Shown here one piece after another: positions 4,642 to 19,125 of a stretch of 64,000 nucleotides of DNA (position 1 is the first letter of the stretch; each line of letters begins with the position of its first letter). This DNA is from Glutamicibacter protophormiae. GTDB lineage: Bacteria; Actinomycetota; Actinomycetes; Actinomycetales; Micrococcaceae. A program made the translations under genes and the position numbers. The stretch spans positions 62,001 through 126,000 of the forward strand of contig NZ_BMPH01000007.1 of the NCBI RefSeq assembly GCF_014647495.1. The letters run 5' to 3'. Below the pieces are notes generated by a model, which searched no databases, was not told the origin of the DNA, and saw nothing but the letters and a program-made list of their open reading frames with translations.

Positions 4642-5130
4642 ATGCAGCCATTGAACGAAAAAACCATCCGCGCCAGCTTTATCAACGCCAGCCGCCAGGA
4701 AGCCAAAAAACTCACCCCGCCGGAAAACTTCAACAGCCTCGACTGGGAATCGCTGGAATACCTCGGTTGGCGCGATCCGAAGATGCCGCAGCGCGGGTAC
4801 ATGATCTACACGAACGCCAACGGCGAAACCCGCGGCTTGTTGCTGCGCGCCACCGAAGGCGCACGCAAAGCGGGCAGCGCGGCCATGTGCGAGATGTGCC
4901 GCGACGTCACCCTGCCGTGCGCGGTAGGAATGTTCACCACCCGCCGTTCGGGCCAAGCCGGCCGCGACGGAGACACGCTGGGCACCCTGCTCTGCACCCG
5001 CTTCGAGTGCTCCGCCAATGTACGCATCGCCCCGCCAAAGGATCCCATCAACCCGGATCCAATGGTTGTCGTTGCGCAGCGGATCATCCAGCTCGATGAG
5101 CGCGTGAACAGCTTCATCGAACGCGTCTAA
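4642..5130 (+). CDS. FBP-domain protein (EF-G-binding, treble-clef zinc finger type)
   Basis: This 162-residue protein resembles the FBP/FusB-type family, whose members bind elongation factor G and can relieve fusidic-acid arrest of ribosomes. The C-terminal half carries a four-cysteine zinc site: CEMCRDV near residue 74 and LCTRFECSANVR near 118. The N-terminal half is helical (NEKTIRASFINASRQEAKKL). The start was set at 4642, with AAGGA 6 nt upstream. An FBP domain alone does not prove fusidic-acid resistance; in actinobacteria this family is mostly uncharacterised. A strong hairpin terminator follows. Confidence 0.8.
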   Translation: MQPLNEKTIRASFINASRQEAKKLTPPENFNSLDWESLEYLGWRDPKMPQRGYMIYTNANGETRGLLLRATEGARKAGSAAMCEMCRDVTLPCAVGMFTTRRSGQAGRDGDTLGTLLCTRFECSANVRIAPPKDPINPDPMVVVAQRIIQLDERVNSFIERV

Positions 5131-14357: not shown

Positions 14358-14666
14358 GATCCACACTCCTATGGTTTTCAGAGCCCCTCCACACGGGGCC
14401 GTCGCAACTCACTTTCGCGTGAAACCAGGCGAAAATCAACGAGGTCTGGGGAATCCACGGTGAGCACGGACACACCACCTTGTGATCTGCGTTTTATGCG
14501 GAGGAGTTGGTTGAACACCGTATTTATTTCGGTCAATTACGCCCCAATGGGCAGATTCGCCCCGGCGCACCACTGATTGGAGCGGTTGGGAGTCGAGGAT
14601 TTCTTTGCCTGCGTAGACTGGAGTGGAATCATCTTTCCTGCCAAGCTAAGGAAATTCAGCAAACCT
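14358..14666 (+). promoter_or_regulatory. 309-bp divergent intergenic region
   Basis: This region lies between the divergent dadA-like gene and the unknown gene at 14667. A short hairpin (CCCC tccacac GGGG) lies near 14385. TAGACT at 14614-14619 is a possible -10 box for the downstream gene. No operator-like palindrome was found. Confidence 0.3.
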
Positions 14667-15890
14667 ATGGCATCACGCAAACCAGCCAAGAAAAAGCAGT
14701 CGCAGGGTCACCCAGCCCGCCGCGAAGGAGCAAGCTCGGTTCCCTTCGAATCCGAGGTTCGACAGGATCTGCAGCCTCTCAAGTCCCAGCTCTTCCGCCA
14801 TTTCCAGGAAGAGGGCCGCCCTGCCAGCGAAACGCGCGCAGCACTGGAAGGGCTGACCACGTTGTTGACCGTGCACGCCCAGTTGCGCAAGTCCGTGGAC
14901 GTGAAGACGCTTGACCCGGAAGTTCTCGGCGAGCAGTTGGGCCATCTGTCGTCGCTGGGCAAGGAAGTTGCCGAGGCCAGCGCCGCGATCCTCAAGCACT
15001 ATCTGACGTTCCTGGGCACCACCGCCAACTTCGGCGGCAGCGTGGATGACTTCAAGCAGACCTTCGAGTTCCTCTCACGCATGGCTGGCGATTCCCCGAT
15101 CATTGCGCCGTTCCTCGAAGACGACGAGGCAAATGCCGCACTGGAATCCATGCCGTTCGTCTATGCTGCTCGCGAGCTGGTCAGCTGGGTCGGCGAAGGC
15201 AAACCCACCTCTCCATCCGGTGTGCTGACCGGCCAGACTCTGCAGGATGCGGCGTCCGTGCTGGGTCTGATGCTCACCGTCGACGAGGCCGCAGAACCGG
15301 CGACGGCCGGATCAGTTCTCTGGGAGCCGGAAGACGGCACTACCGTCTCCAGCCTCGCCGAGGTCCCGCGCCTTTCGGCCTATTGGGACGCGCTGATCGG
15401 CACCGCCATGCTGCGCTACCAGGCGCCGAACGCCATGCCTACCGAGTCCTTGGCCCAGGCGCTGCTCGGCTCGACCGGTCCCGGCTCACGTCTGGTCAAG
15501 GAACTCGTCGCGGAAGTCCTGTTCTCCCACGTGCTGATCAATACGTTGGAGACCCCGGGGCAGTCGACCATTGCGGAAATGACTGCCGGCGTGCTGAGCA
15601 ACGCAGCATCCAGCACGCCTCCACGGACGGAATTCGCGCTGCAGGTCCCAACCACCGACGACCTGCCGGAAGAACAGCACCACCTGATCCCGAGCCTTGA
15701 GGTTGTCATCCCGCAGGTCGAGAGCCTGCTGCGCAACTTCCAGCGTGAAGGCCTAGTGGTTATCGAAGACGAGATCACCGTGCCAGTTGTCCTGCGTTCC
15801 GCCCTGGAACGTGCGCTCTCCAAGGTTTCCGACCATGTGCTTGACGGCGGTCAGGATTCCGAAAGTTCCGAGGGCGGCAAGGCCCAATAG
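14667..15890 (+). CDS. Hypothetical protein of unknown function
   Basis: This 407-residue protein is not recognised. The start at 14667 (MASRKPAKKK) is chosen over an upstream in-frame codon at 14577 because the extra residues look non-coding; AAGGA lies rather far upstream (15 nt). It has a Lys/Arg-rich basic N terminus of about 25 residues. A largely alpha-helical body follows, with a run similar to a winged helix near the end (VESLLRNFQREGLVVIEDE). No signal peptide, membrane span or catalytic motif is visible. It is a single-gene unit between a divergent flavoenzyme gene and a terminator. Confidence 0.75.
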   Translation: MASRKPAKKKQSQGHPARREGASSVPFESEVRQDLQPLKSQLFRHFQEEGRPASETRAALEGLTTLLTVHAQLRKSVDVKTLDPEVLGEQLGHLSSLGKEVAEASAAILKHYLTFLGTTANFGGSVDDFKQTFEFLSRMAGDSPIIAPFLEDDEANAALESMPFVYAARELVSWVGEGKPTSPSGVLTGQTLQDAASVLGLMLTVDEAAEPATAGSVLWEPEDGTTVSSLAEVPRLSAYWDALIGTAMLRYQAPNAMPTESLAQALLGSTGPGSRLVKELVAEVLFSHVLINTLETPGQSTIAEMTAGVLSNAASSTPPRTEFALQVPTTDDLPEEQHHLIPSLEVVIPQVESLLRNFQREGLVVIEDEITVPVVLRSALERALSKVSDHVLDGGQDSESSEGGKAQ

Positions 15891-16942: not shown

Positions 16943-18127
16943 CTAGAACGGGATACTGGCGGTCAAAATCCAGTGACCATTATGCTCCGAAGCTTTGAAC
17001 TTGCCACCAAATGCCTTCATGCGATCCTCCATACCAATGAGTCCGCTGCCCCCTAGTGGCAAGGAGTGCTTGCCAATGGTCGAATCCGCAACCTGATTAG
17101 TGATTTTGAGTCTTGCTTCCTTGCCGTGAGCTGTCAGTGAGATCGAGCATTCGCCACCCGGCAAGGCGTGCTTAATGACGTTGGTCGTCGCCTCCTGCAT
17201 GACTCGATACAGCGCAGTCTGCGCCGAGCGAGGGAGGTCAGAAATTTTTTCTTCGGTGTGCGAGGACACAACAAAATTTGCCTCACGAAGTCGCTGGGAA
17301 AATAGTTCAACACCCTGGACCGCATAAACTGTGGTTGCGGCGGGCTTGTCGGTAGCACCCACGGCCGGATCTGCCATGGTTCCATCGGTGCGCAGGACGT
17401 TGAGCATCAGGCGCAAGTCATGAAGCGTTTCCGTACTGAGTTTCGCGATCACATCAATGGCATCCAGAGCCATTTGGCCATCGTTGGCGAATTTAGCGGC
17501 CTTGGATTGCATGGCGACCACAGTGATGTCATGGGCCACGATGTCGTGGAGATCGCGAGCGATATTCTTACGTTCCGCCTCAATCGCCTGACGTGAACGC
17601 GCGTCTGCTTCTTCCATTTCCTTGACGGCCTTCGCGTTTCGTTCACGCAACAGAAAAATACTGCGAGTTAGCGCGTAGGACAATGCCGACAACGGGGCAA
17701 GAAACAGGATTAGTATCGAATCGTCGCCAGCTCTGAAGATGAACTGGATCATCCAACCAGTAAGAAAAGTCAGATACCAGACCCGGACGTGTCTCGACAA
17801 GGCAGTCGCAGCGAGGGCCGAAAAAATAACAACCGAAAACACCATCCAAAAAAGCAGCTGGCCGTTCCCAAAAAAGAAGAAGGCAGACGCAATATAAATA
17901 CCAAGCGACGCACCCACCCAGCGGCGCCCGACGATAAGTGCAACACATAGAACGATGCCTGCTAACGCACCCCGAATCGATTTCTCGGAGGACTCAATGA
18001 AACCGTCCTGCAGGATCGTAACAATTTCGCTGGCTGATATGGCCAATAATATGGCCATACCACCCCAAATAATGACACCCCGACCAGCAAACTGCTTGGT
18101 CAGGGTGCCTTTAAGCCGTGCAATCAT
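16943..18127 (-). CDS. Sensor histidine kinase, NarL-system type (HisKA_3), with multi-pass membrane sensor
   Basis: The product is a 394-residue membrane kinase. Residues 1 to about 160 are almost entirely hydrophobic, about six spans (e.g. IIWGGMAILLAISASEIVTIL and ASAFFFFGNGQLLFWMVF), with no large extracellular domain. This layout is typical of receptors for small peptides or membrane stress. A short coiled linker leads to the HisKA_3 H-box ERKNIARDLHDIVAHDITVV, with the phospho-accepting His near residue 197. The HATPase domain ends in GGSGLIGMEDRMKAFGGKF. It lies 49 nt downstream of the small secreted peptide gene on the same strand. The matching response regulator is divergent at 18448. 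Confidence 0.9.
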   Translation of the reverse strand: MIARLKGTLTKQFAGRGVIIWGGMAILLAISASEIVTILQDGFIESSEKSIRGALAGIVLCVALIVGRRWVGASLGIYIASAFFFFGNGQLLFWMVFSVVIFSALAATALSRHVRVWYLTFLTGWMIQFIFRAGDDSILILFLAPLSALSYALTRSIFLLRERNAKAVKEMEEADARSRQAIEAERKNIARDLHDIVAHDITVVAMQSKAAKFANDGQMALDAIDVIAKLSTETLHDLRLMLNVLRTDGTMADPAVGATDKPAATTVYAVQGVELFSQRLREANFVVSSHTEEKISDLPRSAQTALYRVMQEATTNVIKHALPGGECSISLTAHGKEARLKITNQVADSTIGKHSLPLGGSGLIGMEDRMKAFGGKFKASEHNGHWILTASIPF

Positions 18128-18176
18128 ACGCCGAATACTTCACCGGGCAAGCCGTGAAGTCAAGCGGACGAACTTG

Positions 18177-18365
18177 CTAGCAGGAGATGCCGTAGTTCTT
18201 GCAGAACCAGTTCGACAGGTCGGTGCCCCAACCAGCCGGGGTAGCAACAGCGCCACCCTTCGAGATCACCTGGCTACCAGCGGTAGCAGCGGATGCCGGA
18301 GCCGCAACTGCAGTAACCGGCGCGAGTACTAGTGCCGCAACTGCGAGCATCTTCAGTGCCTTCAT
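18177..18365 (-). CDS. Small secreted peptide with two C-terminal cysteines (candidate signal peptide for the adjacent kinase)
   Basis: The gene encodes 62 residues from the ATG at 18365, which has GGGGTG about 4 nt upstream. The ATG at 18377 has no ribosome binding site. Residues 1-26 are a textbook Sec signal peptide (MKALKMLAVAALVLAP, then AAPASA|A). Predicted cleavage leaves about 36 residues, mostly Gly/Ala/Ser-rich. They end in the aromatic, two-cysteine tail GWGTDLSNWFCKNYGISC. The two cysteines enclose six residues and could form a disulfide ring. The gene is first in an apparent operon with the histidine kinase and is divergent from the response regulator. An autoinducer or bacteriocin role is inferred from this context; no homolog is recognised. 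Confidence 0.75.
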   Translation of the reverse strand: MKALKMLAVAALVLAPVTAVAAPASAATAGSQVISKGGAVATPAGWGTDLSNWFCKNYGISC

Positions 18366-18447
18366 AACACACCCCATGTTTGAGTATTCTTATATAGTTC
18401 GAGTGAGCAGTCCGGAGCTGGCCTGTAGTGACTTTCTAAGGAAACTG

Positions 18448-19125
18448 ATGGAACAGATCAAAGTGCTCATCGTCGATGACGAGCCCCTTATTCGGAATGC
18501 TTTGGGCACAATCCTAGCAACGGATCAGAGAATTGTAACGCTTCAATCTGTAGATAACGGATTAAAAGCTGTCGAATTCTGCAGGGACAATGAAGTCGAC
18601 GTTGTTTTGATGGATTTGCAGATGCCCATCATGGACGGAGTCGAAGCTACACGGGAAATCAAGGCCGCAAGGAACAGCCCTGCGATCCTTGCCATCACGG
18701 CGTTCTCATCCGACGACTACCTCGTGCCTGTGCTTGCCGCCGGCGCAGGCGGCTACTTGGTTAAAGACACTGAACCGGCAGAGATCATCAGCGCAATACA
18801 TGCTGTCCACAATGGCACCGCAGCTATTTCCCCGTCAGTTTCTTCGGACCTCGTCTCCGCGATTCAATCGGCGTACCGGGACACCAGCCAGGAAGTCCGC
18901 GATCTGATCGAAGATCTCGGCCTCACTGCGCGTGAGGTGGAAATTCTGAACCTCTTGGCGAAGGGTCTTAATAACACCGAGATCAGCCGAAAATTGAAAA
19001 TTTCAGAAGCCACCGTAAAAACGCATATGGCCAAAATCTTTTCCAAGCTCGAAGTGCGCGACCGTGTCCAGGCGCTGGTAACGGCCACGCGCATGGGCCT
19101 CATCGAGATTCCACGCGACCAGTAG
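18448..19125 (+). CDS. Response regulator, NarL/FixJ (LuxR-type HTH) family
   Basis: This 225-residue regulator starts at 18448 with AAGGA 5 nt upstream. The receiver domain has the acid pair in VLIVDDEPLIRNAL, the phospho-accepting Asp in VLMDLQMPIMDG near residue 57, and Lys in GGYLVKDTEP. The C-terminal LuxR-type HTH reads LTAREVEILNLLAKGLNNTEI, then ATVKTHMAKIFSKL. The gene is divergent from the peptide and kinase genes, with 82 bp between the starts. This shared promoter region is the natural target for control of both sides. Confidence 0.92.
   Translation: MEQIKVLIVDDEPLIRNALGTILATDQRIVTLQSVDNGLKAVEFCRDNEVDVVLMDLQMPIMDGVEATREIKAARNSPAILAITAFSSDDYLVPVLAAGAGGYLVKDTEPAEIISAIHAVHNGTAAISPSVSSDLVSAIQSAYRDTSQEVRDLIEDLGLTAREVEILNLLAKGLNNTEISRKLKISEATVKTHMAKIFSKLEVRDRVQALVTATRMGLIEIPRDQ

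Follow-up and report, generated by a model that had tools for sequence, protein, structure and literature searches.

A conserved trio of secreted two-cysteine peptide, membrane histidine kinase and divergent regulator as a candidate peptide-signalling system in Glutamicibacter and its relatives

The stretch of DNA analysed here, 64,000 nucleotides from Glutamicibacter protophormiae and called the window below, contains a compact three-gene locus in which a small secreted peptide and a histidine kinase lie on one strand and a response regulator diverges from them. Its genes and features are as follows, each with the evidence on which it rests.

18177 to 18365, minus strand: gene for a secreted peptide precursor, 62 aa (sequence, genus conservation, alignment, purifying selection)
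18288 to 18365, minus strand: Sec signal peptide, residues 1-26 (cleavage predicted by eye from the A-x-A rule; conserved in the alignment)
18180 to 18209, minus strand: C-terminal core WFCKNYGISC, residues 53-62, a candidate CX6C ring (alignment)
16943 to 18127, minus strand: HPK7/HisKA_3 histidine kinase, 394 aa, with a transmembrane-only sensor (Pfam, alignment, AlphaFold2 model, PDB structure match)
17663 to 18082, minus strand: sensor domain of the kinase, made up of transmembrane helices (six in the model), residues 16-155 (hydropathy, AlphaFold2)
17384 to 17575, minus strand: HisKA_3 dimerisation and phosphoacceptor domain, residues 185-248, with H194 (Pfam; H194 invariant in the alignment)
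18135 to 18163, minus strand: promoter-like TTGACT-N17-AAGTAT before the kinase ATG (16 of 18 genus loci; single occurrence in the window)
18366 to 18447, no strand assigned: divergent promoter region between peptide and regulator, 82 nt (gene coordinates, genus comparison)
18389 to 18406, minus strand: the window's form of an AT-rich element conserved in the genus (consensus CTTATATACTTNCAAGTGA, plus strand); predicted peptide -10 and candidate regulator site (genus comparison)
18448 to 19125, plus strand: divergent NarL-type response regulator, 225 aa (Pfam receiver and GerE HTH, regulator profile)

The initial annotation of this DNA described a secreted 62-residue peptide ending in WFCKNYGISC, and such a gene is found exactly where it was placed. 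Its product begins with a basic n-region and a hydrophobic core, followed by a signal-peptidase site of the APASA/ATAG type; no second hydrophobic anchor is seen in the precursor beyond this signal peptide. In an alignment of 23 precursors from four genera, W53, C55 and C62 never change and the linker varies in both length and sequence. Because the gene is present in all 18 Glutamicibacter genomes searched, the source genome among them, and shows a dN/dS of about 0.17 in the 20 codons leading up to the second cysteine (with dS near saturation), we regard it as real. The peptide is without a convincing match to any library family: Pfam and PADLOC gave nothing at E ≤ 1, and the best NCBIfam (E 0.06) and PHROG (E 0.057) matches, together with the best PDB match of a 23-row profile (E 0.086), are all worse than 0.05. 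The lactococcin 972 family (NCBIfam TIGR01653) was considered and rejected, as the likeness (E 0.06) scores 13.6 bits against a cut-off of 32.1 and covers residues 1-41 only, leaving the C-terminal core unmatched.

The kinase gene starts 49 nt after the peptide stop. Its HisKA_3 domain clears the Pfam cut-off and its HATPase_c domain falls slightly under its own (25 versus 26.4 bits). Hydropathy gives five helices in the sensor part and an AlphaFold2 model six; the model, built from nine sequences, is of moderate confidence (mean pLDDT 68; 64-87 in the sensor-part block) and places six helices with short loops and no extracellular domain ahead of a kinase core whose best PDB matches are DesK. 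Both analyses bear out the earlier description of a sensor made only of transmembrane helices. The protein is 83% identical to its counterpart in G. soli NHPC-3 and 78% to that in G. uratoxydans NBRC 15515. By analogy with AgrC and ComP, membrane sensors with comparable ligand action, the modelled shape would suit a small, hydrophobic ring that acts at the face of the membrane.

The regulator, with receiver and GerE HTH domains above curated cut-offs, lies divergently across the 82-bp region as had been proposed. A longer, 308-aa version from a TTG start is a mechanical open-reading-frame call that we set aside; the start at 18448 is preceded by a ribosome site of the AGGA type that recurs in the 18 genus loci. 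The AT-rich element in the shared region sits at the likely -10 position of the peptide gene, and may also be a regulator site. When 16 Glutamicibacter genomes were searched with the consensus CTTATATACTTNCAAGTGA, allowing up to two mismatches, 11 gave a single match per genome, at the trio locus, and five gave none, including the source genome, where the site falls one base short of the pattern's length; a control search with the pattern reversed gave one match. Used as a regulon search, this promoter element found nothing in the 16 genomes beyond the trio's own site, a once-per-genome occurrence that is compatible with autoregulation and nothing further.

A second conserved element, TTGACT-N17/18-[AG]A[GT][TC]AT, ends 7 nt before the kinase ATG in 16 of 18 Glutamicibacter loci and occurs once in the whole window; the site is absent from the list returned by a consensus promoter scanner. 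Because of this position, the kinase probably also has a leaderless promoter of its own. The initial annotation's two-gene operon is thus an incomplete description. A hairpin between the two genes in the window is not conserved across the genus.

The initial annotation also anticipated that the three genes would stay linked while the peptide tails differ. We searched 395 genomes of the family with a peptide profile (up to 16 first-look candidates scored per genome) and with a regulator profile (up to seven per genome; 107 places at E ≤ 1e-76, all examined). Regulator scores show a gap, with 51 places at 326 bits or more and the remainder at 306 bits or less. All 51 of these closest loci (18 in genus g1, 15 in g23, nine in g15, seven in g4 and two in g27, by our own handles) have a divergent kinase and a small secreted peptide that ends in CX6C with 0-4 residues after it, and the rings differ strongly between species; in all 18 Glutamicibacter loci the kinase follows the peptide and the regulator diverges. 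Peptide homologues standing alone, which would have spoken against a tie to the kinase, did not appear: the 41 peptide-profile matches at E ≤ 3e-5 lie without exception inside trio loci. Ten of the 51 trios are not among these strong matches. Matches listed past the top 41 (E about 6e-5 to 0.01) were left uncounted, being mostly N-terminal profile stretches in long frames; one genuine trio, in genome G031, falls among them. Three genus peptide matches (L031, L033 and L034) were dropped, as neither kinase nor regulator adjoins them. We also note a weak match at L203 (about 4843-4968, genome G060), which covers profile positions 1-43 with E 2.6e-4 and lies close to a regulator and kinase in tandem.

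The 56 lower-scoring regulator places comprise 35 divergent pairs, 19 tandem pairs and two without a kinase within 2.5 kb. For these we used a peptide criterion of 35-125 aa with a Sec-like signal and a C-terminal CX5-7C followed by at most five residues. Fifteen of the 35 divergent pairs satisfy it, one more does so by eye (L131) and 19 do not; the rings at these more distant loci, such as CYYVPFWC and CFFFKRC, have five to seven residues between the cysteines. An order-wide sample of 297 genomes gave 29 loci, of which ten are divergent and three of these carry a qualifying peptide; the sample overlaps the family set (L086 and L087 repeat two family loci), and one of the ten divergent pairs is such a repeat. 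Both named Kocuria loci, in K. varians and K. salsicia, carry a qualifying peptide, with the rings CGYFPYLC and CGYLPLLC.

Because the criterion was fixed after peptides had been seen, controls matter. Dinucleotide shuffles of the same gaps satisfy it in 14 of 1860 trials, and tandem kinase-regulator loci never do (0 of 32, with 600 nt upstream searched and one locus counted twice). The source genome has nine HPK7 kinases, and no such peptide is present at the seven loci examined among the eight others. In a class-wide sample of 345 genomes, the best 30 regulator loci comprise four divergent pairs, all from genomes already met, six tandem pairs and 20 without a kinase in the examined stretch. 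Since these best 30 loci give no trio from new genomes outside the order, the system seems limited to this order, to the extent that similarity of the regulator in these samples can tell.

Genus g13 accounts for 15 of the 19 distant divergent pairs that fail the criterion, by a criterion scan with three loci also read by eye.

L130, L132, L133, L175, L178-L180, L182, L184, L185, L192, L193, L195, L200, L201: g13 divergent pairs of HPK7 kinase and regulator without a secreted CX5-7C peptide

As the criterion misses leaderless peptides, absence here means absence of a peptide of the secreted CX5-7C kind. Since none was found at these 15 loci, a divergent pair may work without such a peptide.

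Leaderless peptides may in fact occur in another family, in genus g59, where 7 of 79 genomes have a close regulator. The divergent gaps there contain micro-ORFs of 13-18 residues, preceded by Shine-Dalgarno sequences, whose distance from the start of the regulator hardly varies (about 150-170 nt).

L265-L271, L088, L089, L093-L095: g59 micro-ORF loci, in the gap between regulator and kinase

The predicted peptides include MGIFYIFGKMIGIFR, MWDWLGRWLGIWK, MWYWLGQLIGIFK, MTVWTWLCQQLGVCSN, MFASSIWTALCKLLRACS and MTFWQGVGKFFGFTR, and several have no cysteine. Two stretches, WLGRWLGIWK and WLGRYLGIWK, show a likeness to the ring core WFCKNYGISC (p 0.0004-0.002 by shuffling, uncorrected for eleven tests), MTVWTWLCQQLGVCSN does so weakly (p about 0.04, likewise uncorrected), and the other eight of the 11 micro-peptides show no significant likeness to it in the shuffle test. 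These micro-ORFs are possibly ligands of the related kinases; if they are real, the element kept at this place would be a ligand, with the disulfide one way to build it. Elsewhere, in genus g10, the divergent pair L181 (genome G448) is accompanied by a short ORF with the C-terminus MCKTMRLCR, which may encode a further ring peptide of the leaderless kind.

Around the trio, a Pfam scan of five neighbouring window ORFs recognised no maturase, exporter, immunity or modification gene; the five are a nitroreductase, a ClpB-type ATPase, a DAO oxidoreductase and two ORFs without a Pfam match. Comparison of 21 neighbourhoods found the nitroreductase in six and a 437-aa ORF in eight (the window included), in Glutamicibacter and four g23 loci; other trio loci, those of g15 included, have different neighbours. 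This 437-aa ORF (14577-15890, plus strand, start uncertain) has no Pfam match. Plasmid and phage records gave no match to the peptide, and viral contigs none to the regulator. Taken with the neighbours common to two genera, this suggests a resident chromosomal regulatory system, and the same observations led us to reject a mobile bacteriocin.

The peptides are highly diverse, with 42 distinct ten-residue cores among the 51 closest loci. Genus g15 has the trio in nine of 11 species, with rings including CRHFGIWC, CRNFGVWC, CTVFPFMC, CFNFGMFC, CERWGLFC, CDYVPRWC and CKHLGLYC; measured against genome G194, its regulators are 73-88% identical, its kinase cores 50-78% and its sensor domains 31-62%. 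Within Glutamicibacter, too, the sensor is the part of the kinase that changes most quickly. Against G. soli, the window's regulator is 98% identical and the sensor part of the kinase 72%; among eight HPK7 kinases compared, none has a lower sensor identity or a larger sensor/DHp contrast. Against G. uratoxydans, by comparison, the sensor identity of 70% is mid-range (61-75%) among seven HPK7 kinases with an orthologue, so that its divergence is ordinary for the class. Partial Mantel tests of ring against sensor distance, with the regulator controlled, gave for Glutamicibacter r 0.16 (p 0.07) and for g23 r 0.35 (p 0.015), where no signal came from the kinase core (p 0.34 and 0.25). When all 51 loci are taken together, the ring tracks the kinase core, and the sensor remainder with the core controlled gives r 0.007 (p 0.44), a test that cannot separate the two. 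These results are at best suggestive of coevolution between ring and sensor.

Several known systems resemble the trio in part. ComQXPA of Bacillus (ComX, ComP and ComA), with its polymorphic signal and sensor, likewise has a secreted precursor, encoded next to a kinase of the HPK7 type whose membrane sensor has several helices and to a regulator of the NarL/LuxR type, a combination that the trio shares. The trio differs in that no ComQ-like prenyltransferase is found among the five window neighbours scanned, its precursor begins with a Sec signal peptide and has two cysteines at the C-terminus, and its regulator is divergent whereas that of ComQXPA lies downstream. The Agr system of staphylococci (AgrB, AgrD, AgrC and AgrA) combines a hydrophobic ring signal of about 8-10 residues with a multi-helix sensor kinase, signal and sensor both being hypervariable, and the trio, with its candidate ring, is alike in each respect. 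Unlike Agr, however, it has no AgrB-like protease among the window neighbours scanned, thiolactone chemistry is not expected, the kinase core is closest to DesK, and the regulator carries a GerE HTH and not LytTR. We accordingly did not assign the trio to either type: by analogy it would work like ComX-ComP-ComA or Agr, yet components that define them are missing from the trio and the window neighbours scanned. Circuits with double-glycine peptides (ComCDE, bacteriocin inducing peptides) also place a small secreted peptide beside a kinase and regulator, but the trio has a Sec signal peptide and proteins of the HPK7/NarL type, with no peptidase-containing ABC transporter among the window neighbours scanned. 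DesK-DesR and other HPK7-NarL pairs share the kinase core fold and regulator class, and the HisKA_3 and receiver-GerE assignments place the trio's proteins among them; the tandem pairs differ in having no such upstream peptide at any of the 32 loci tested. The feature that marks a pheromone class, a secreted peptide, membrane kinase and regulator kept together, is found at every one of the 51 closest loci.

Peptide quorum sensing is known mainly from Bacillota. That one trio recurs with very different rings in related bacteria points to an undescribed chemical language in this group. The literature covered by our search, which included parts of PMC12849477 and PMC8467076 and had most subscription journals outside its scope, gave no account of the peptide or trio. 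One published passage, concerned with competence only, argues against a single secreted signal with one threshold in that setting.

We think it likely that the trio is an autocrine or paracrine peptide-pheromone two-component system resembling ComX-ComP-ComA or Agr in how it works, and that the peptide is the extracellular ligand of the neighbouring kinase; a role as a density signal we rate lower than that of ligand. The precursor would be exported by Sec and cut by signal peptidase, as its signal peptide implies. Its C-terminal core, roughly WFCKNYGISC, may then, perhaps once trimmed, form a disulfide ring by extracellular oxidation, which we infer because CX6C is invariant at the C-terminus and no modification gene was recognised beside the trio. 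The ring would bind the membrane domain of the adjacent kinase and shift its balance between autokinase and phosphatase activity; the kinase, to judge from the conserved linkage, would set the phosphorylation of the divergent regulator, and the regulator may bind the shared 82-bp region and control both the peptide gene and itself. With a leaderless kinase promoter, receptor level need not track peptide induction, so that cells could listen before signalling. The conserved linkage with varying tails speaks for the peptide-signalling reading first proposed, and the weak covariation of tail and sensor and the 15 g13 pairs without such a peptide count against it.

Other explanations must be weighed against this one. 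Small secreted aromatic two-cysteine peptides can be antimicrobial, and the peptide might be an effector of the bacteriocin kind, expressed under the control of the adjacent two-component system in response to another cue such as envelope damage; envelope-stress kinases also have transmembrane-only sensors, although the LiaS model scores the kinase at 47.5 bits against a cut-off of 450. We consider this unlikely, given the presence of the peptide throughout the genus genomes searched, the neighbours common to another genus, the lack of an immunity or export gene among the five ORFs scanned and of plasmid or phage matches to the peptide, and the fact that none of the 41 strong matches lies apart from the kinase pair.

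The peptide could also be a membrane or extracytoplasmic accessory subunit of the kinase, either an inhibitor or a two-cysteine redox sensor, that stays with the cell producing it. The invariant cysteines and the strict linkage with the kinase suit such a subunit as well as they suit a ligand, and what makes it improbable is the predicted signal-peptidase site with no other hydrophobic anchor seen, ring sequences that vary far more than a redox module needs, and the leaderless micro-ORFs at the same place in related g59 loci, several without cysteine. It is very unlikely, finally, that the peptide gene is functionally unrelated to the kinase pair and a neighbour merely by descent: synteny is partly vertical and the g13 pair stands without such a peptide, but the linkage persists where flanking genes differ between genera and despite peptide divergence strong enough to put ten of the 51 trios outside the strong profile matches.

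The pheromone reading can be extended. We hold as evenly balanced the broader proposal that ring-peptide pheromones of an undescribed family, leaving the cell through Sec and closed by a simple disulfide with no dedicated maturase or exporter, are a main means of signalling between cells in Micrococcaceae and relatives (Glutamicibacter, Kocuria, probably Micrococcus luteus and others). The rings, of five to seven residues between the cysteines, would have diverged until signals became specific to species, some genomes having two systems, and one branch would have replaced the ring by leaderless peptides of 13-18 residues. The conserved, diversified trio is in any case a directly testable candidate for cell-cell signalling in the family. 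If the reading is true, a ring pheromone can be made with one gene, by Sec and extracellular oxidation only, and high-GC Gram-positives would gain many potentially orthogonal signal-receptor pairs.

One further observation concerns genus g6, in which each of three genomes has two trio systems (L186 and L194, L131 and L188, L190 and L198) with different rings, for example CKWWPVFC and CGFLFLRWC; these paired systems could be parallel channels.
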